A stretch of 21,895 nt of DNA from a virus. The translations under genes were made by a program, and so were the position numbers. Below, in pieces: positions 2,629 to 21,848 of this stretch. The notes under the pieces are model-generated. The model had not been told where the DNA came from. It worked only from the letters and a program-made list of their open reading frames with translations, and made no database searches. The stretch lies in IMG/VR virus record IMGVR_UViG_3300020472_000193, positions 1 through 21,895 of that record, one strand, 5' to 3'. Every line of letters begins with the position of its first letter. Position 1 is the first letter of the stretch.

Positions 2629-2804
2629 TGAAACTATGTTTAAACAAAGATGAGGCAACATTTATACAAGAGTGTATAGCATTTAAAAAACATGCTCTTA
2701 GACATGATTGGAATGATATAGGTGTTGAGTCTAAAGCTGTAGGAGAAAGTTTGATCTACAGAATAAATAAATTATTAACTAAGAAAGGAGTTAAACGAAC
2801 ATAA
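2628..2804 (+). CDS. 58-residue helical basic protein
   Basis: 58 residues, with GAGGGAGAA before the ATG. It reads as two or three amphipathic helices (EATFIQECIAFKKHALRHDW; VGESLIYRINKLLTKKG) with a basic tail. Small proteins of this shape often bind DNA or RNA, but there is no motif to prove it. Its stop codon lies inside the 5' strand of the first helix of the structured RNA that follows, so translation to the end would disturb that helix. Confidence 0.55.
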   Translation: MKLCLNKDEATFIQECIAFKKHALRHDWNDIGVESKAVGESLIYRINKLLTKKGVKRT

Positions 2805-3313
2805 CTTGGTTGGGCATAAGGCAGTGAAAGTCTGTGGTGTAACCCTTAAAAAAAGGAGAAAACCCATTAAAACATTCCCAAAAAGATATCCTATCAATGC
2901 CAAGTTATTAGAGAGTTAGAAGAGAAACCAAAGATTGCCTGTTGAATGGTGGCAATAAGCGTCTAGCTCAGTTAGGTGTATGAGCAAATTGGCAGATGTC
3001 GTGAGAGCTAAGTGCGACTCTTGAGTGTGATGAATATAACAAGCTCTTGCTCTTCCTAATGGGAAAGCCTTTAGGAGAGTGCAAACTAAAAAAACCACAT
3101 GGCGAATCATCACTGCGTCATACACCTAAATAATTATCGGTAGCGACTAATTCACGGAGTTGCTTTAAATATGAACTGTTAATTATCATAGCCGATAAAA
3201 AGAATTAGCCTAGCTAGGCTACCCAGTAGTAAGGACACTGAAATCTAGGGGTAAGTGTTTAGAAAAGATACTCCATCAGGTCGCACCTGATATGCAATTT
3301 ACTTAATACTGGG
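2801..3313 (+). ncRNA. Candidate large structured phage RNA, upstream of tRNA-Trp
   Basis: A 510-nt stretch without a convincing gene, visibly richer in G+C than its surroundings and full of complementary segments. Helices seen: 2801-2809 with 2900-2908 (9 bp); 2934-2939 with 2951-2956; 2966-2970 with 2981-2985; 2998-3001 with 3015-3018; 3050-3059 with 3071-3079 (9 pairs, one bulge), extended by 3047-3049 with 3082-3084; 3134-3140 with 3192-3198 (7 bp), which encloses 3142-3148/3158-3164 and 3170-3174/3186-3190 as a three-way junction; 3206-3210 with 3217-3221; 3222-3228 with 3307-3313 (7 bp), which encloses 3233-3239/3254-3260 and 3275-3281/3285-3291 as a second junction. AGAGCT (3004-3009) can also pair with AGCTCT (3042-3047), a possible tertiary or alternative contact. 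The last helix ends 6 nt before the tRNA, so tRNA 5' processing could free its 3' end. Size, complexity and tRNA neighbour resemble the GOLLD and ROOL classes of large phage RNAs, but I cannot assign it to either. Confidence 0.6.
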
Positions 3314-3319
3314 AGTTAC

Positions 3320-3393
3320 GAGGGTTTGGTATAATGATATTATGTTGGTCTCCAAAACCAAAGATAGAGGTTTGATTCCTTTAACCCTCGCCA
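3320..3393 (+). tRNA. tRNA-Trp (anticodon CCA)
   Basis: The acceptor stem is GAGGGTT 3320-3326 with AACCCTC 3383-3389, then discriminator G3390 (normal for Trp) and encoded CCA 3391-3393. The anticodon stem is TTGGT 3345-3349 with ACCAA 3357-3361 and loop CTCCAAA, giving anticodon CCA at 3352-3354, which reads UGG. The T stem is AGAGG 3366-3370 with CCTTT 3378-3382 and loop TTTGATT. The D arm is weak: 3329-3331 with 3341-3343 only, and its loop lacks the usual GG, while the T loop has T in place of C56. The normal elbow contact is therefore missing, so the tRNA may be divergent, fragile or specialised. Confidence 0.85.
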
Positions 3394-3413: not shown

Positions 3414-3545
3414 ATGTTGACAAGAATATTGAACAGAACTAAGAATGAAATTAAGCCTACAAAGAAATGGGATAACGAAGTAATTAAAATGGTAGAAAGA
3501 TATGACGCTAGAAAAAAGATTAAAGAAGTTAGCCAAAGACACTAG
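3414..3545 (+). CDS. 43-residue very basic protein
   Basis: The ATG at 3414 follows CAGGAGAGA; the open frame extends further upstream but only through the tRNA, so that part is not coding. The product is Lys/Arg-rich throughout (LTRILNRTKNEIKPTKKW; YDARKKIKEVSQRH), suggesting nucleic-acid contact. It overlaps the next ORF by 44 nt in another frame, which is unusually long. Not recognised. Confidence 0.55.
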   Translation: MLTRILNRTKNEIKPTKKWDNEVIKMVERYDARKKIKEVSQRH

Positions 3546-4990: not shown

Positions 4991-5268
4991 TGCCAATGAG
5001 CAAGAAAGAACTTGACGCTTTAGAGGAAAGAAGTAAGTTAAAAAGAAGACTAACTTTTCCTGAAAAAGTAGATTTACTAGATAACGAAGAGCTTAAAGAT
5101 TTTCATCAAAATGTAATTAGACGATTGAAAGATATTGCTGTTCGTGAAGAGGTAGACAGAGATGAATTGAATAGATTGATAGACAGTCTAACAGCTATTG
5201 AAAAAGTATTACGCCACAGAAGATTAAAAGCAGAAGAGGAAGCTAGGTGGCTTAGTAAATTACCATGA
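4990..5268 (+). CDS. 92-residue helical charged protein
   Basis: I use the ATG at 4990, at the stop of the previous gene; an in-frame ATG at 4978 is possible but would lie in the previous gene with no ribosome site. Residues 1-90 are a highly charged helical protein (KELDALEERSKLKRRL; LKDFHQNVIRRLKDIAV; LRHRRLKAEEEARWLSKL), probably a helical bundle or coiled coil. ATGA joins it to the next gene. Confidence 0.7.
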   Translation: MPMSKKELDALEERSKLKRRLTFPEKVDLLDNEELKDFHQNVIRRLKDIAVREEVDRDELNRLIDSLTAIEKVLRHRRLKAEEEARWLSKLP

Positions 5269-5729
5269 GTAAAGCAAAACCTCATACAGCCCCTACTAAA
5301 AAATTTGATAGGGAACTATTTAATGCAAACGATCCTCAAACTAGAGAGTCAGCTAAAAAATTATTACCTCCTAAATTAAAAGAGATACTCTGTTTAAACG
5401 AAGAGCCTGTCTTGGAAGATAACCTAGAGGCATACGGCATAGACTTGATTTGCCCTAAACATAATCTTAGTGTTGAGGTAGAAACAAAACATGGTTGGGG
5501 CAGTGGCAAGTTTCAATGGGATGATATGCACATACCTAGAAGAAAATTTATATATACAGAATTAGAGGGTGATATATTTTTTGTGGTGTTCAATACCGAT
5601 AGGACACAGGCAGGAATAATGACGAAAGACTCTATTAAAAAAGAGAGAGTTGTTAATAAATTCAATAGGTTATCACGATTACATGAAGATTATATTTCCG
5701 TGCCTGTTGAGGAAATTATATGGGTGTAG
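5265..5729 (+). CDS. Putative PD-(D/E)XK-type nuclease-like protein
   Basis: A 154-residue protein coupled to the previous gene by ATGA and to the primase by a 10-nt overlap. Residues 52-77 read as a nuclease core: E55 and D60 in NLEAYGIDLICP, then a strand with E71, E73 and K75 (VEVETKHGW), giving D-x(12)-E-x-K, the arrangement of the PD-(D/E)XK fold used by many phage endonucleases. The remaining part (GDIFFVVFNTDRTQAGIM) is the alternating beta-alpha pattern expected after the ExK strand. The location beside the primase supports a role in DNA metabolism. The assignment rests on a short motif only, and a non-catalytic relative is possible. Confidence 0.6.
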   Translation: MSKAKPHTAPTKKFDRELFNANDPQTRESAKKLLPPKLKEILCLNEEPVLEDNLEAYGIDLICPKHNLSVEVETKHGWGSGKFQWDDMHIPRRKFIYTELEGDIFFVVFNTDRTQAGIMTKDSIKKERVVNKFNRLSRLHEDYISVPVEEIIWV

Positions 5730-6644: not shown

Positions 6645-7874
6645 ATGAGCAGTATGCCAAAAGAGATACTTAAAAAGTATGCAACAGATTTTGAATTTCA
6701 TAACCAAGTTAAAGGTAGATTAGATGACAAAATGTTTTCTAATGGATTGCTAAAAGCAAAACATGCCGTTGACGATGCTTATGATAAATATAAAGATAAA
6801 AGTTTAAGCCTAAAAGAAATAGCTATGAATTATATAGCGTCTAACCCTTCAATTACAATTAGTCAGAAAGAATCTATACTTGCCGAGTTTGACGCTATAG
6901 ATAGACTGGAAGACATAAATGATGATATTGCGTTTGACATGGTATATAAAATGTCTCTGCAGTCGTTTGCCCAAGATGTGGCACAACAGTCTATACAGAT
7001 TATGCAAGGTGAACATTACGATACAAGTTTAGTTTTAAGAGCTACAGACAAGCTAAACAAAATGGCAGACAGAAACAAAGAAGATGATTTAAAGTGTTCA
7101 AATGATATGGAAGAACTGTTTGAAGAGATAGACAGAGAGCATCATTATTCTTTTCATGTTCCTTCCATAAACGATAGAGTCGGAGGATTGAGTAAGGGTA
7201 TGTTTGTTGTAGTAGGGGCTAGACCAAATGTCGGTAAGTCAGGATTTGCACATTCTATGATTGCATCTCCTCATGGGTTTTTAGATCAAGGGGCTAAATG
7301 TATTATGTTTACAAATGAGGAGAGACCTCAGAGGCATATGTTGAGAATGGTTTCTGCGTCTTGTCAAGAAAGAATTAAATATGTTCAAGAGTTTAAACAC
7401 CGATTTATAGATAAGTGGAAAAAGAAATCAGAGACATTGCAAATTATAGACTCTAGTAGTCTTACTTTTGGAGAGCTAGAAGCTATAGTTGAAAAAGAAA
7501 AACCTGATGTGGTTGTTATTGACATTTTAGATAAAACACATATAGGAGGTAGTTATGCTAGAGATGACCAAAGGCTTACTAGTCTGTATTCAGAGGCAAG
7601 AGATTTAGCAAAGAGGCAAGATTGCGTTGTATTTGGTATGTGTCAGTTATCTGCTGAGGCATCTGGTAAAATAATTCTTAATGACTCTATGTTATCTGGA
7701 TCACGAACTGGTAAGGCAGGAGAAGCAGACTTAATTGTTTTAATTGGTAAAGAAGATACAGAAGAAGGCGATACAAACATGCGTTGGATTAATATAGTAA
7801 AGAATAAAATAACTGGCGTTCATGGAAATTTTGCTGTAATATTCGATAATCTAACCGCTACTTACACTGAATAA
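6645..7874 (+). CDS. Replicative DNA helicase, DnaB/RecA-fold type
   Basis: 409 residues, GAGGAGAG before the ATG. It unwinds DNA at the fork, driven by ATP. The RecA core is clear: Walker A GARPNVGKS at 191-199, FTNEE at 222-226 with the catalytic Glu, Walker B VVVID at 289-293, the Gln sensor in GMCQLSAEA (Q334), and GSRTGKAGEAD with LIVLIGKE near 352-370, ending in IVKNKITG with the lysine/arginine finger region. The first 165 residues are helical, as in the DnaB N-terminal domain, but diverged. It follows the primase and the small lipoprotein. Its TAATG end starts the next gene. Confidence 0.9.
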   Translation: MSSMPKEILKKYATDFEFHNQVKGRLDDKMFSNGLLKAKHAVDDAYDKYKDKSLSLKEIAMNYIASNPSITISQKESILAEFDAIDRLEDINDDIAFDMVYKMSLQSFAQDVAQQSIQIMQGEHYDTSLVLRATDKLNKMADRNKEDDLKCSNDMEELFEEIDREHHYSFHVPSINDRVGGLSKGMFVVVGARPNVGKSGFAHSMIASPHGFLDQGAKCIMFTNEERPQRHMLRMVSASCQERIKYVQEFKHRFIDKWKKKSETLQIIDSSSLTFGELEAIVEKEKPDVVVIDILDKTHIGGSYARDDQRLTSLYSEARDLAKRQDCVVFGMCQLSAEASGKIILNDSMLSGSRTGKAGEADLIVLIGKEDTEEGDTNMRWINIVKNKITGVHGNFAVIFDNLTATYTE

Positions 7875-15454: not shown

Positions 15455-15915
15455 TGCTGTCGTTACTTGGATCAGTTCTTGGTTTTGGAACTTCTTTTCT
15501 CCCCTCAGTATTGGGGTTTTTCGAGAAGAAACAACAACACAAACAAGAATTACTTATGCTAGAGGCGAAAGCTAAATACGCCTCTGAGCTAAGTAAATTA
15601 AAATTAAAAGAATTAGACGCAGAAGCAGACATAGAAGAAGTAAAAGGTTTGTATAAACATGCTGAGTCATTAGCACAAGCAAACAAATCTACATTTGTAT
15701 CTGCTCTACAAGCATCGGTACGACCAGTTATAACATACGCTTTTTTTAGTATATTTGCATTTGTTAAAATTACTTATGTGCTGTTAGCTACACAAGGCGG
15801 AGAAGACTTACTACCTGCTATACTAGCTGCCTGGGATGAGGAAAGTCAAACCATCTTTGCCGCTATTATTAGCTTCTGGTTTGGGAATCGCTTATTTAAA
15901 GCAAGAAACAAATAG
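15454..15915 (+). CDS. 3-TM holin of the GTA_holin_3TM type
   Basis: 153 residues. Segment 1 is hydrophobic and Gly/Leu-rich (residues 2-23). Residues 24-80 form a charged helix. Residues 90-112 start with VRPVITY, a signature of the 3-TM holin family, and make TM segment 2. Residues 131-148 contain FAAIISFWFGNRLF, matching the conserved FWFG(E/N)R end of the family, as TM 3. Holins make holes in the inner membrane to time lysis. No endolysin is in this window, so it probably lies elsewhere. Confidence 0.8.
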   Translation: MLSLLGSVLGFGTSFLPSVLGFFEKKQQHKQELLMLEAKAKYASELSKLKLKELDAEADIEEVKGLYKHAESLAQANKSTFVSALQASVRPVITYAFFSIFAFVKITYVLLATQGGEDLLPAILAAWDEESQTIFAAIISFWFGNRLFKARNK

Positions 15916-15916
15916 C

Positions 15917-16531
15917 ATGGAAGAAGTAGAGTATCAAAGAAGAGATGCTTTTCCCACACATATGTTTATGTTTGCTAATGTAGATTTAGCTATTAGATTA
16001 AAGAAGTATATATCAAAAGATAAAGTTAAAGGTATAGAATCTGGTGTTGCTACAGAAGTTAAAAAAAATTTAGATGAATCAGATTTTGATTTTTTAAAAA
16101 GAGAAGATGAGGTTATAAAAGAGTCTGTACAATATTTTTCAGACAGTATACAGATAGCACTAAATGATATTTTTCAAGAAAAAGTGGCATATAAAATAGC
16201 TTTTCCTGACAGTTGGTATCATATATGTAGAAAAAATAGCTCTCACGAAACGCATCAACATTCTAATTGTAGTTGGTGTGGGGTGTTTTATGTTACTTCT
16301 GGTGACGCAGATTCTGGAGGGCAGACAGTTTTTCTAAGCCCTATTGGGAGTAATTTTAAGGATGAGGGTTCTCCTCTATCTAATTCAGGTATTGTTAAAG
16401 TTACCCCAGAACAAGGTACTTTAATATTATTTCCGTCTTACTTACAGCATTATCAATCTTTATATACAGGAAATAGTAACAGAATAACTTTAGGGTTTAA
16501 TAGTATAATAATGGAGAGAATACAATCATGA
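15917..16531 (+). CDS. 2-oxoglutarate/Fe(II) oxygenase-like protein (first of four)
   Basis: 204 residues from the ATG at 15917, just after the holin stop; an in-frame ATG at 15836 lies inside the holin gene and is rejected. The double-stranded beta-helix of the 2OG oxygenase family is visible: H113 and H115 in HQHSNCSWCGVFYV, then GGQTVFLSP, then GTLILFPSYLQH with H178, then N188-R189 binding 2-oxoglutarate, followed by LGFN. In the TIGR02466-like subgroup the first motif is often H-x-H rather than H-x-D, as here. Target unknown; the cluster suggests a virion or cell-surface target. Joined by ATGA to the next gene. Confidence 0.75.
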   Translation: MEEVEYQRRDAFPTHMFMFANVDLAIRLKKYISKDKVKGIESGVATEVKKNLDESDFDFLKREDEVIKESVQYFSDSIQIALNDIFQEKVAYKIAFPDSWYHICRKNSSHETHQHSNCSWCGVFYVTSGDADSGGQTVFLSPIGSNFKDEGSPLSNSGIVKVTPEQGTLILFPSYLQHYQSLYTGNSNRITLGFNSIIMERIQS

Positions 16532-17313
16532 GAGCTGTAGGAAAAGCTATAGCATTTGACGATCATAAAGACGAAGATACATTTCCTTTATTTCCTTTTG
16601 GTCCTATAGTGTTTTATTATAAACTGCCTAAAAAGATGGTAGGCTCTTTAAATAATTATGCAGAAAAAATAATTAAAGATAAAGCTAAAAGTAAAGAACT
16701 AGATCATTCACAATCTTTAGTAGGAAAATTAAAACAAGAATTTTTAATAGAGCCAACAGAGCTAAATAAACATACGGATACAATAACTCAAGTTGTTGCA
16801 AATTATATGCAAACAGATTTATCAAGACATAGTAAAACATTTCCTGAAGATCATATGCTAGATGTCGGTATTAACACTGCTTGGATAGTAAGACAATATT
16901 CAGGAGAATATAATCCTGCTCATATTCATACCCATTGCGACATGTCTTGTGTAGGATATTTAAAACTTCCTTCTGATATAGATAAAGAGTGGGAAGAAGA
17001 TTACAAAGACCACCATCCTTGTAATGGTCATATAGAATTTTTACATGGTCAGCCAGGTAATTTGCTTAGACATACTTATTTAGTAAAACCTAGTGTAGGA
17101 GATTTCTTTTTATTTCCTTCAGAGCTAACGCATATGGTTTATCCATTTAAGTCTGATGGAGAAAGGAGATCATTTAGTATGAATATAACTGTTACATCTT
17201 TACCAAAAAATAAAGCATTTAACCCTGTTAGAAAATATGCTACTAATGATTTAACACAAGAATGGCATACCAAACCTAGATCAAAAATATTTAAGGATAC
17301 AAAGGATAAATAA
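16528..17313 (+). CDS. 2-oxoglutarate/Fe(II) oxygenase (second of four)
   Basis: 261 residues, GGAGAG about 9 nt before the ATG. Iron ligands are H132 and/or H134 (NPAHIHTHC) with H202 (ELTHMVYPF), and R213 or R214 (GERRSFSMNI) should bind 2-oxoglutarate. Typical strands are AWIVRQYSGEYN before the first motif and SVGDFFLFPSELTH before the second. The closest relative in the window is the fourth oxygenase, with the same GEYNPAHIHT and GERRSFSMNI. It hydroxylates an unknown substrate using oxygen and 2-oxoglutarate. The C-terminal 40 residues form a basic tail not seen in the paralogue. Confidence 0.85.
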   Translation: MRAVGKAIAFDDHKDEDTFPLFPFGPIVFYYKLPKKMVGSLNNYAEKIIKDKAKSKELDHSQSLVGKLKQEFLIEPTELNKHTDTITQVVANYMQTDLSRHSKTFPEDHMLDVGINTAWIVRQYSGEYNPAHIHTHCDMSCVGYLKLPSDIDKEWEEDYKDHHPCNGHIEFLHGQPGNLLRHTYLVKPSVGDFFLFPSELTHMVYPFKSDGERRSFSMNITVTSLPKNKAFNPVRKYATNDLTQEWHTKPRSKIFKDTKDK

Positions 17314-17314
17314 C

Positions 17315-17893
17315 ATGTTTAGTAATATTATATTTGAGTCGGCTTTAAGTGAAGAAGATTGCGATACTATAGTAAAAGAATGTGAAAGATTATTAACTTT
17401 AGAAACATCTGGAATTTCAAATGATGCTAAAATAGAAACGGAATCAAGAAAAAGTAAAAGTGCTTTTCTTTCTATGTACAACCCTACTCATTTAAATATA
17501 TGGCAAACTGTTAGTAGCAGGATATGGGCATTTGTTAATTTAGCTAACAGATCTGGTTTTGGTTTTGATGCTACTTATTTAGATGAAATTCAATATGCAC
17601 AATACGATGTTGGAGATTTTTATAAATGGCACAAAGATTTAATAATAGAGACAGACAATGCGTTTCAAAGAAAATTAAGTGTGTCTGTACAGCTTTCTGA
17701 TCCTGATACTTACGAAGGAGGAGAGTTAGAAATGCAGGGTTTAGCGAAAGGGCACGAATTACCTCAAAATGTCCTTAAAAAAAGAGGAACGGTTATTGTG
17801 TTTCCTTCTTTTTGTGTACATAGAATAACCCCTGTAACAAAAGGCACTAGAAAATCTTTAGTTGCTTGGGTGGAAGGAAAGAAGTGGAGATAA
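17315..17893 (+). CDS. Prolyl-4-hydroxylase-like 2OG oxygenase (third of four)
   Basis: 192 residues. This one has the classic H-x-D: H106-K-D108 (FYKWHKDL), then QRKLSVSVQLSDPDTYEGGELEM, then H169 (FPSFCVHRITPV) and R179 (KGTRKSLVAWVEG). These are the iron ligands and the 2-oxoglutarate anchor of the PKHD/P4H subgroup, which includes iron-regulated PiuC-type proteins and phage hydroxylases. A ribosome site AAGGAT stands before the ATG, and only 1 nt separates it from the previous stop. It is not closely related to its neighbours, so the cluster combines different subgroups. Confidence 0.9.
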   Translation: MFSNIIFESALSEEDCDTIVKECERLLTLETSGISNDAKIETESRKSKSAFLSMYNPTHLNIWQTVSSRIWAFVNLANRSGFGFDATYLDEIQYAQYDVGDFYKWHKDLIIETDNAFQRKLSVSVQLSDPDTYEGGELEMQGLAKGHELPQNVLKKRGTVIVFPSFCVHRITPVTKGTRKSLVAWVEGKKWR

Positions 17894-17894
17894 C

Positions 17895-18575
17895 ATGACA
17901 CAAGTAAGAAAACCAGTAGAGTTTACAGGATTACCAGAAGGGCATGCAATGCTTACTCCTTTTGGGCCTCATATAGTATACTCCAGAATGCCTTCAAAAA
18001 TAATAAAATCCTTAAATAAATATGTAGATTTAAAAGTTGATAAAGGCAGGACTAAAAAATTAGATCATTCTCAACATCTTGTAGGTAAAGTGTCCCAAGA
18101 ATTTAGGATTGATCAAAAACAAATAGAAAAAATATCACCTTTCTTTAATTCTGTTTTTGGTGCGTATTATCAATTTCATTTACAAAGAAGAAATCAAGCA
18201 TTAAATAAAGATAGTGCAATTAATGTATACTATAATGGAGCATGGGTGGTCAGGCAATTTGCAGGAGAATATAATCCTGCTCATATTCATACAGAATGTC
18301 AAATATCTTGTGTAGGGTATTTACAAGTTCCTGATTTTTCTATTGAAGAAGAGAAAGAAAAGAAAAAACATTTTCCTTCTCATGGTAATATAGAATTAAT
18401 ACATGAAGGAAGTAATGAATGGCATCAAGGCAGTATGAGAATTAAGCCTCATGTAGGAGATTTTATAGTATTTCCTAGTTATCTTATGCACACTGTTTAT
18501 CCTTTTAAAGGGGATGGGGAAAGAAGATCTTTTAGTATGAATATAAGTTTAGATGTAGTTAAGAAGGAGAAATAA
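17895..18575 (+). CDS. 2-oxoglutarate/Fe(II) oxygenase (fourth of four, paralogue of the second)
   Basis: 226 residues; the ATG at 17895 is chosen because it follows the previous stop directly, while 17862 would overlap. It shares with the second oxygenase the N-terminal LDHSQ-LVGK block, GEYNPAHIHT (H130, H132), CVGYL, GNIEL, VGDF-VFPS, H199 and GERRSFSMNI (R210 or R211), so the pair arose by duplication with the P4H-type gene now between them. The short linker and missing basic tail are the main differences. Substrate unknown; two diverged copies suggest different targets. Confidence 0.85.
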   Translation: MTQVRKPVEFTGLPEGHAMLTPFGPHIVYSRMPSKIIKSLNKYVDLKVDKGRTKKLDHSQHLVGKVSQEFRIDQKQIEKISPFFNSVFGAYYQFHLQRRNQALNKDSAINVYYNGAWVVRQFAGEYNPAHIHTECQISCVGYLQVPDFSIEEEKEKKKHFPSHGNIELIHEGSNEWHQGSMRIKPHVGDFIVFPSYLMHTVYPFKGDGERRSFSMNISLDVVKKEK

Positions 18576-19746: not shown

Positions 19747-19849
19747 CTTCATCTCCTTTATCACTAGACAATTTGCGTTTTGATTTACGCAAATCTATTT
19801 TATAATTTTCTAAAAAGAATTTTTCTTTCCAAGTTAAATTATCTTCCAT
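19727..19849 (-). CDS. 40-residue charged protein bridging two genes
   Basis: A 40-residue ORF starts 11 nt before the stop of the large exported protein and ends 20 nt inside the next gene. The sequence is very charged, with a helix (LTWKEKFFLENYKIDLRKSKRKL) and an acidic tail (SSDKGDEDEKLIT). The Shine-Dalgarno of the following gene lies in its last codons, which suggests translational coupling through it. Such short Lys/Glu proteins are common in marine phages; role unknown. Confidence 0.55.
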   Translation of the reverse strand: MEDNLTWKEKFFLENYKIDLRKSKRKLSSDKGDEDEKLIT

Positions 19850-21848
19850 TAAATATGTCAAGAGGTTGTTGCCCCATCATATCATATAACTTATCTGAAC
19901 TAGATATTACTAATCCAGAAAATGCAGAAACATTGTCCCTCAATATAGCGTCTGCATATATTACTGTCGGCTCATACCAAGTAGCTTGATCAGGTATATT
20001 ATACTCTGTATAAGATGTAAAATTAGGTACATAATTCATGTAAGCAATAAGAGTTGCTTGTCCTTGTGTATCATACTCTCCTGTCTCTTCCTGTTGCTGT
20101 TGTGACTCTTCTTGTTGAGCTCGTATATTATTAGCTACAATTTCATCTGCTATTTGATCTGCTTCTGAGGCAGACACCATTGTGCTTGTCATACTTTCTA
20201 TTTGATTGTCAATAGAAGTTACTTGTACTTCTGCCATAACTATTGCAGGAGAATCCCCTACTGTAGGCATAGGTGTTATATTAATAGATTGTAACACCGT
20301 ATTTGTTTGTGCTTGAGAAGATGCTATCTGGTCCGATATACTAGGAGAATTAGTAGTAGATGAAGGAGAAACTGATGCTGTGCTACCAGTAGCTCCTATA
20401 GTACTATTAATAGCATTGTTTGAAGTACTAGATGATATGCTTCTATTTACAGTAGCATTAACATTACTTAACAATGTGTTTGTTGATGCAATGATTGAAC
20501 GAGCTCTTGAACTTCGTCTCGGTCTATCTTCCTGTATTTCTTCTTCCTCTGCCTCAATGCTTTCTTCCTCAATAATATCCTCTTCCTCTTCGATAATCTC
20601 TTCTTCTTGTTCTTCAAAAGTTTCTTCTGTTTCTGCAAATTGTTCCCTCTCCTCTTCAAACTCTTCCTCAAAGTGCTCTTCAAAGTGTTCTTGCATCTCT
20701 TGCATTTCTTCTTCTGTAATCTCTTCTTCTATAAATATTATAAACTCTTCTTCTCTATCTATAATATGTATTTCAAAAATATCTATAACTTCTGTATCCG
20801 TAATATCTTCTAAAGGTATAAAATCTATATTTTCTAAGTCAGGAAAAAAAGAGTCATCAGTAAAACTAAAGTCATCATCCAATGATATATGTTCATCTTC
20901 TAAATAATATTCCTCAACAAAAATGATATCACTAATGCTAATAGTAGCATCATAGTCATCACCCCCAATGTGCCCATAGCTAACATCTTCAAAAACCACT
21001 TCTCTTCCATATAGGTTTGTTTCATCTTCGTGAAATCCATAAAAGTCCTCCTCTTCATCATACCCCAACAGCATAGAGTTTGTTACTCCTGCCCCATACA
21101 AATAATCTTCTTCTTCAAAATCATTTGTTAAATCATATACATCACATAATTCACTAAAGGCTGCATCAACTAAACATTCAGAAGAAAGATTACTAAATGA
21201 TTCATCTATAACTTCTGCTGTAGTAATACTAAAGTCATCAGTCTCAATATAGGTTGTGCTTCCAGTGTCTTCATATCTTAGGTATGTTACAGCTTCGTTA
21301 TTACCTTGTAGTCCTATTGTTATGTCGTGATTTTGTATGCGAAGCTCATCATATCTAAAAGCAATTTCATTAGTTGTTTCATATAATATAGCTTGAAAAG
21401 TACTCTTTAACCCATTGCTATATTCAGAAACATTGTCCCACATGATGACAAAATATTGATCTGTGTCTGCTGTTTGTCCAAATGTTTGTATGTAGGGAGA
21501 TTGATTGCCACTAGACCTTCTAATATAATCTGACCAGGCAGGGAATACAGAGTAATTAAATGAAGTAGCAGGTAGCGTTTCTGATCTGTAATTTCTCGAT
21601 CTCGATACCGAGAAGTTGTTCTGGAAAGTAAAGAATCCGTTCATAGATATATTTACTTGAGAAAAAGTCTGATCATAAAAGGTAAAATCGAAACCGATAT
21701 TTTTCATCCCAGACATATTATCATCGCCTAGACTTAATCCTGTCCCAGTCCCAGTTATATCAATAAGAGGATCACTGCCTATAGTAAATGTAGGCGGATT
21801 AGCCATAGCAGAAAAACTAAAGAATAATAATGTTAAGAGTCTGTACAT
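19839..21848 (-). CDS. Large exported protein with nidogen-like domain and Glu-rich middle
   Basis: 669 residues on the minus strand. A signal peptide (MYRLLTLLFFSFSAMA) is followed by a domain at about 20-215 that reads like a nidogen extracellular domain: NIGFDFTFYDQTFSQVNISMNG, PAWSDYI, YFVIMWDNVSEY, TFQAILYETTNEIAFRYDEL and ITIGLQG. Residues 235-345 are acidic with Tyr/Phe, and 360-440 are nearly all Glu, Asp and Ile (EEEEDIIEEES). Then RPRRSSRARS starts a Ser/Thr/Asn/Ala-rich stretch (450-520), a Gln/Glu patch (EESQQQQEETG) and a structured end with IAYMNYVPNFTSYTEYN. Two Cys (C225, C235) may form a disulphide. An in-frame stop lies 27 nt upstream. It may be a virion surface or secreted attachment protein; unsure. 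A Ser-rich plus-strand frame inside it is an antisense shadow. Confidence 0.75.
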   Translation of the reverse strand: MYRLLTLLFFSFSAMANPPTFTIGSDPLIDITGTGTGLSLGDDNMSGMKNIGFDFTFYDQTFSQVNISMNGFFTFQNNFSVSRSRNYRSETLPATSFNYSVFPAWSDYIRRSSGNQSPYIQTFGQTADTDQYFVIMWDNVSEYSNGLKSTFQAILYETTNEIAFRYDELRIQNHDITIGLQGNNEAVTYLRYEDTGSTTYIETDDFSITTAEVIDESFSNLSSECLVDAAFSELCDVYDLTNDFEEEDYLYGAGVTNSMLLGYDEEEDFYGFHEDETNLYGREVVFEDVSYGHIGGDDYDATISISDIIFVEEYYLEDEHISLDDDFSFTDDSFFPDLENIDFIPLEDITDTEVIDIFEIHIIDREEEFIIFIEEEITEEEMQEMQEHFEEHFEEEFEEEREQFAETEETFEEQEEEIIEEEEDIIEEESIEAEEEEIQEDRPRRSSRARSIIASTNTLLSNVNATVNRSISSSTSNNAINSTIGATGSTASVSPSSTTNSPSISDQIASSQAQTNTVLQSINITPMPTVGDSPAIVMAEVQVTSIDNQIESMTSTMVSASEADQIADEIVANNIRAQQEESQQQQEETGEYDTQGQATLIAYMNYVPNFTSYTEYNIPDQATWYEPTVIYADAILRDNVSAFSGLVISSSDKLYDMMGQQPLDIFNGR

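Follow-up and report, generated by a model that had tools for sequence, protein, structure and literature searches.

Arrays of exchangeable, mostly pseudoknotted RNA modules in marine phages

The locus and its RNA modules

The window, that is, the whole stretch of DNA analysed here, is a 21.9-kb IMG/VR virus fragment whose DNA polymerase is closest to those of HMO-2011-type phages (HTVC033P, 43%; CRP-1, 42%; HMO-2011, 40%). Positions 2801-3319, which run from the end of a 58-aa ORF (2628-2804, + strand; no known family) to a gene for tRNA-Trp (3320-3393, + strand; CCA anticodon, 3' CCA encoded, 61.1 bits), contain five successive, self-closed RNA modules, A to E; the 5' end of the array overlaps the stop codon of the ORF (2802-2804), so that the latter lies inside the first helix. 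The first gene 3' of the array is an ORF at 3414-3545 (+ strand; product beginning MLTRILNRTKNE). A homologue of the 58-aa ORF (87% identical aa) precedes the array of the related contig L003, and the gene at 3414-3545 follows the arrays of L003 and L006 and, one small gene further on, that of L002; the proteins neighbouring the array were examined and gave no clue to function. A DNA methyltransferase gene (1438-2130; phrog_359), which looks MT-A70-like and is very common among marine phage contigs (287 relatives found), lies 0.7 kb 5' of the array.

A preliminary description of the window had seen in this region, held to be without a real gene, one structured RNA of about 510 nt and of unknown class, richer in G+C than its neighbours and separated from the tRNA by 6 nt. 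Most of this was borne out: ORFs of at least 60 aa are spurious, no reading frame is conserved across the relatives, which differ by indels of whole modules, the G+C content is 38-41% as compared to about 27-37% nearby, the gap between the last helix of the array and the tRNA is 6 nt, and all the helices named are present at the positions given. The single unit, instead, resolves into five modules, and several elements had been overlooked, namely, a 12-bp helix (2972-2983/3118-3129), a 16-nt palindromic hairpin (3206-3221) and two pseudoknots (2811-2814/2863-2866 and 3248-3253/3269-3274).

All five modules are read on the + strand. Module A (2801-2908) is closed by the 9-bp helix P1, exactly 2801-2809 with 2900-2908, and contains P2 (2821-2824/2832-2835), P3 (2844-2847/2853-2856) and a pseudoknot between UGGG 2811-2814 and CCCA 2863-2866. 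Module B (2913-2969) consists of P1 (GAGTTAGA/TCTAGCTC), P2 (ATTGCC/GGCAAT) and a possible pseudoknot, ACCA 2927-2930 with TGGT 2947-2950; it occurs in six arrays (the window, L003, L116, L089, L118 and L123) and is almost invariant, with little covariation. Module C (2972-3129), which likewise varies little, is bounded by the overlooked 12-bp helix, with inner helices at 3025-3033/3107-3116 and 3052-3059/3070-3077; it is found in the window, L003, L116 and L002, the last of which has a different hairpin in place of the inner one. The likeness of 2964-2986 to a tRNA D arm, pointed out earlier, is coincidental: the 3' strand of B's closing helix makes up its left half and its right half lies within the 5' strand of C, so that the segment is a chance junction of two modules. 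Module D (3134-3198), a three-way junction already named in the preliminary description and closed by TTATCGG/CCGATAA, was seen in the window only and is cleanly missing from the otherwise collinear L003, L116 and L002; it is backed by its fold (z = -2.44). Module E (3203-3319), which scored 128.4 bits with the E covariance model, comprises the palindromic hairpin P1, P2 (3222-3233/3302-3313), P3 (GACAC 3234-3238/GTGTT 3255-3259), P4 (3275-3280/3286-3291) and an H-type pseudoknot, GGGGTA 3248-3253 with TACTCC 3269-3274, with an A-rich loop. P2 closes the second junction of the preliminary description (3222-3313) by 12 bp, CCCAGTAGTAAG/CTTAATACTGGG, with one mismatch in the window where the relatives have C. 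The palindrome that opens E is perfect over its 16 nt (TAGCCTAGCTAGGCTA in the window) and palindromic in every aligned variant; such a site could serve for kissing between molecules or as an operator in the DNA.

Related arrays and the exchange of modules

Loci linked to the primase were searched first and yielded three close relatives, in which the alignment with the window is interrupted precisely where helices begin or end: 3137-3198 is missing from L003 and most of 2811-2971 from L002, and the tRNA is absent from all three. Scans with DNA patterns taken from pieces of the conserved cores raised the number of distinct arrays to about 34, of which a few are truncated at the end of a contig. 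All come from IMG/VR marine phage contigs, which are metagenomic and mostly fragments. The arrays draw on at least 13 recurrent module types, each 50-160 nt long, with 1-8 modules per array, separated by linkers of 0-14 nt and in a largely fixed order: A, B, C or K, D, E, F, G, one of H, I, L or M, and J. The exceptions to this order are repeats, such as a second G in L119 and a second F in L117; the membership is not conserved. Specifically, the window has A-B-C-D-E-tRNA, L003 has A-B-C-E-F-G-H-J, L116, with up to about 800 nt, A-B-C-E-F-G-I-J-type, L102 A-K-E-F-G-L-J and L120 A-E-F-G-L-J; shorter sets are A-B-E-H-J (L118), A-B-E-F-H (L089), A-F-G-H-G (L119), A-M-J2 (L122), E-H-J-type (L105), E-H-J2 (L114) and E-F-G (L133), and L149, L165 and L176 carry E alone. 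The 15 related records (6-49 kb) contain at most one E each, two weak second matches being on the opposite strand at the same site; an E-like match in L167 was discarded since it lies inside a gene. In one subgroup, a hairpin with a U-rich loop, GACAGCAGACAAGGTTTTT...CCTTGTCTGTTGTC (L122, oriented, 7203-7255; also L112, L164 and L127), stands behind or between modules and resembles a terminator or else one more module.

At the site of the window's tRNA, the arrays of relatives continue for another 150-300 nt, so that the tRNA-Trp fills the slot of the F-M/J modules. No tRNA was found in the 15 related contigs or in the other arrays, and a search of the modules with ARAGORN and RF00005 gave no tRNA or tmRNA besides 3320-3393; the tRNA thus appears, by this comparison, to be a private addition to the window genome, in the place of the 3' modules. 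The suggestion that the RNA is a co-transcript released by tRNA processing may hold in the window, with its 6-nt gap, but cannot be the general biology of the arrays because the relatives have no tRNA. The same comparison bears on the idea that the array is a cluster of separate small stable RNAs, cut apart like a phage tRNA array, each with a job outside defence, for example, regulation by base-pairing. Every module is self-closed, a tRNA occupies a module slot in the window, and the AU-rich AAGAAUU linkers resemble RNase E sites; against this stand the tRNA-free relatives and the variability of the linkers, and we consider the idea rather improbable.

The similarity of individual modules cuts across that of the genomes. 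The window and L116 share module C at 99% identity over 159 nt and module B at 97%, whereas their E modules are 78% identical and the primases share 37% of their amino acids. Module H is 100% identical in L003 and L119, the latter with a primase 38% identical to that of the window; L003 has F and G in common with L133, at 96% and 99% identity, respectively, and L133 has no match to any tested protein of the window. L133 was grouped, through shared flanking sequence and not through a terminase of its own, with L124, an array-bearing member of a second phage group whose terminase is closest to that of Pelagibacter phage HTVC027P (61%). Yet another phage, L160, has a divergent E (78.9 bits). Since modules are up to 99-100% identical in phages with primases only 37-38% identical or with no shared replication genes detected, they behave as cassettes that move independently of each other. 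A 154-aa ORF (5265-5729) with no Pfam or PHROG family, located 2 kb from the array, retains 86-92% identity among phages in which the adjacent primase is merely 37-39% identical and, judging from these values, is a second freely exchanged gene near the array.

Outside the metagenomic contigs, the arrays were not encountered. A blastn search of the window region against 50,697 records of annotated phages (E<=10) returned tRNA-Trp genes only, among the best 20 of 122 matches, and the arrays of L003 and L102 had no match in the same records. In HTVC033P and HTVC027P, two cultured relatives, the stretches examined contain no array; a 20.6-bit match in HTVC033P (E 0.12) was taken as chance. A pattern scan of genome contigs gave 45 matches, of which none exceeded 15 bits with the E profile, and the E model had no match in 385 alphaproteobacterial genomes, in a search run without a positive control. 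Judged from the phage relatives alone, the hosts of the array phages are probably marine alphaproteobacteria.

Covariation, strand and operon context

When considering the folding of such modules, a caution on single sequences is in order. The minimum free energy of the whole region is only modestly low (z = -2.49, with 3 of 100 shuffles equally good), so that single-sequence folding is no proof and covariation becomes the decisive evidence. Module C folded alone gives z = -3.35, whereas A, H, I and M give z of about 0 to -0.6, values that are uninformative, as is to be expected if pseudoknots carry the fold. The kinship of the sequences inflates shuffle tests, and the weight was, therefore, placed on independent pair types and on slid controls.

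By these measures modules E, A and G covary, so that the large structured RNA proposed from the window now has support from its homologues. The alignment of E comprises 23 sequences and 35 pairs, including the H-type pseudoknot, and all five helices covary: 97.0% of 805 cells are paired, as compared to 89.3% in shuffled and 24-46% in slid alignments, and 14 pairs are changed on both sides (0 of 500 shuffles). The nested part was recovered independently by RNAalifold. In particular, P1 changes from UCCU/AGGA to UCUC/GAGA, P2 from CCCAGUAG/CUACUGGG to CCUAGUGG/CCACUAGG and P3 from ACAC/GUGU to GCAC/GUGC; the pseudoknot occurs as GGGGUA/UACUCC, UCGGUA/UACCGA, UCGGAA/UUCCGA and CUUGGUA/UACUGAG, and P4 as AUCAGG/CCUGAU, AUUAGG/CCUAAU and AUGAAG/CUUCAU. 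The A-rich loop is near-invariant. In module A (11 arrays), 98.9% of cells are paired and the covariation score is reached in 0 of 500 shuffles; the six pairs changed on both sides are a count attained by 28 of 500 shuffles. P1 of A is replaced on both sides between two subgroups, AACTTGG/CCAAGTT in one and GATGTAGG/CCTACATC in the other, and the pseudoknot is invariant across the alignment. Module G (15 sequences) has a covarying closing helix and retains a UGGY/GCCA pseudoknot; its inner helices align poorly (84% paired), and on two of five measures it does not surpass the shuffles. A and G share a pseudoknot plan, with the layout UUGGN...N'CCAUUAAA, the A profile cross-matches G weakly (E 0.5-0.7) and an intermediate was found in L127; by sequence, the two modules look related. 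H, I and M have a common plan, checked by hand, of two hairpins with complementary loops (UGGC/GCCA, GGU/ACC and UGCUA/UAGCA).

Cells with G.U outnumber those with A.C by 54 to 3 in E and by 30 to 0 in A; in G, with its poor alignment, the counts are 21 and 18. The excess in E and A indicates that the RNA of the + strand is the conserved entity. This one-strand bias, the covariation of the H-type pseudoknot and the constant orientation to the genes tell against a feature of the DNA, such as a recombination or operator site, with incidental folding. The modules are swapped by recombination and the opening of E remains palindromic when changed, as such a feature would have it; all the same, we find this explanation scarcely credible. 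Taken together, the data make it highly probable, with a probability that we would put slightly above 0.9, that the array is a non-coding RNA of the + strand, a string of independently closed, mostly pseudoknotted domains that are gained, lost and exchanged as cassettes.

Wherever the surroundings of an array were checked, the genes on either side can be read in the direction of the array itself, and many arrays follow an upstream stop codon by 0-16 nt. The arrays of one phage group end close to the next Shine-Dalgarno sequence; in the other group, they end right at a predicted TTGAC(A/T)-N17-GATATT promoter with an extended -10. The small genes of the HTVC027P-like group each seem to own such a promoter (L149, 3125 and 3744; L105, 2511 and 3313), and the array there would seem to lie within a cassette-like early region.

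This tight placement lends itself to a role in cis: as a 3'-UTR or intercistronic element, the array could stop 3'-to-5' exonucleases or set mRNA ends by means of its pseudoknots, thereby stabilising or insulating the short upstream gene. The single E of L149 and L176 spans the distance from a stop codon to a predicted TTGACT-N17-GATATT promoter, that of L165 abuts the promoter, and no terminator-like site was found on the + strand of the window. The upstream genes, however, vary between groups, some arrays are about 90-150 nt from the nearest upstream gene, and up to eight dissimilar, individually conserved pseudoknots exceed the needs of a stabiliser. Owing to the position after stop codons, we rank the cis role close behind the decoy function considered below, as a minority possibility.

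Known RNA classes and possible functions

The preliminary description had considered membership of GOLLD or ROOL, which found no support. The Rfam collection (4,227 families), searched with the window and its relatives at gathering and permissive thresholds, yielded the tRNA only; two sub-threshold matches, L17DE (21.8 bits) and DUF2693 (18.1 bits), were taken as chance. Neither class matched the window or its relatives in cmscan even at E up to 1-10; searched directly, the GOLLD model (RF02032), which describes the conserved 3' region of that class, matched 0 of 7 records, i.e. the window and six related ones, at E<=10, and ROOL (RF03087) gave no match at E up to 10, in a search without a positive control. 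GOLLD is a large structured RNA of phages and prophages, with marine members, found near tRNAs and variable in its 5' part, and ROOL is a large phage RNA with multiple pseudoknots near tRNA islands (PMC12286853). The array is similar to ROOL in being large, phage-borne, rich in pseudoknots and, in the window, near a tRNA; unlike GOLLD, it is built of serial swappable modules with no universal 3' core. A single assembly comparable to the GOLLD and ROOL cages, with the modules as optional peripheral domains, would accord with the size of the L116 array, the phage setting and the one adjoining tRNA, as well as with the conserved order of modules and the self-complementary AGCU loop of E, which could kiss between copies. 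Yet neither cage model matched, a lone E is enough in L149, L165 and L176 and no module is common to all arrays; we regard such an assembly as quite unlikely.

Other known RNAs offer parallels as well. Type III antitoxin RNAs (ToxI, AntiQ, CptI) are tandem H-type pseudoknots with A-rich loops (PMC5086642), and the pseudo-ToxI of phage phiTE is a phage RNA array which evolves by repeat expansion and recombination and defeats the abortive-infection toxin ToxN (PMC3475682). An H-type pseudoknot with an A-rich loop was found here in module E only, and whereas ToxIN repeats are 34-36 nt long and near identical, the array modules measure 50-160 nt, are mutually dissimilar and keep a fixed order. STAXI (RF01728), in which a pseudoknot occurs in two to three copies close to genes for antirestriction and DNA manipulation (PMC2864571), is one repeated motif of Enterobacteriales, to which the array has no Rfam match. 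Phage tRNA arrays are likewise strings of closed structured RNAs in one operon, and a tRNA is one of the window's elements; they differ in that the window has a single real tRNA. No description of arrays of the present kind was found in the open-access literature. To our knowledge, every large phage RNA described so far forms one family with a single architecture, and the tandem pseudoknot RNAs are built by repeating the same unit. The architecture seen here, a mosaic of dissimilar pseudoknot domains traded as cassettes, is new in kind, but it would be a variant of something known should the function prove to be antitoxin mimicry.

The next step can be envisaged as follows. The array RNA would be transcribed within an early operon mRNA, as most loci are too tight for a promoter of their own, and its domains would persist as compact, nuclease-resistant RNAs, either in one chain or after cuts in the linkers; in the window, RNase P, in maturing the tRNA-Trp, would free the 3' end of E 6 nt beyond its last helix. 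Each domain might then act as a decoy or inhibitory ligand of some RNA-binding factor of the host, be it an RNase, a toxin of abortive infection or a different defence protein. On this view, the array would be a combinatorial RNA counter-defence set analogous to the pseudo-ToxI of phiTE that neutralises ToxN. The many dissimilar modules, their fast gain and loss with near-identical transfer and their absence from related isolates point to accessory, host-directed RNAs; owing to these traits, the pseudoknots of type III antitoxins (PMC5086642) and the phiTE precedent (PMC3475682), we rank a decoy or inhibitor array as the most likely function. The position right behind stop codons suits a cis role in the mRNA equally well. 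No ToxN gene (PF13958) was found in the 16 array-bearing records by a search whose positive control failed to register, and no Abi_2 gene (PF07751) in the same 16 records; this counts against the decoy, although a decoy would need no such gene in the phage, and so does the difference between the modules and the short, near-identical repeats of ToxI. The whole chain, from co-transcribed accessory RNA to decoy or inhibitor, is, accordingly, put forward tentatively, as more apt to fail at some link than to hold throughout, and the specific form in which interchangeable pseudoknot cassettes confront host RNases and defence, each aimed at a different host factor, is possible but doubtful.

What the arrays display is many different pseudoknot domains, in variable sets but in a largely constant order, traded among phage groups that share little else, i.e. 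the logic of gene cassettes applied to RNA folds. They would constitute a new RNA class in abundant ocean phages, would open a way into RNA-based phage counter-defence and would provide structural studies with about a dozen new RNA folds already tested by evolution.

Two further features of the window lie far from the array. On the - strand, 19839-21848 encodes a protein of 669 aa that may carry a signal peptide and has a long central part of low complexity, rich in Glu and Asp; the protein has no match in Pfam or PHROG; ahead of it, 15914-18575 holds a row of four 2OG-Fe(II) oxygenase ORFs, three of PF13759 and one of PF13640.
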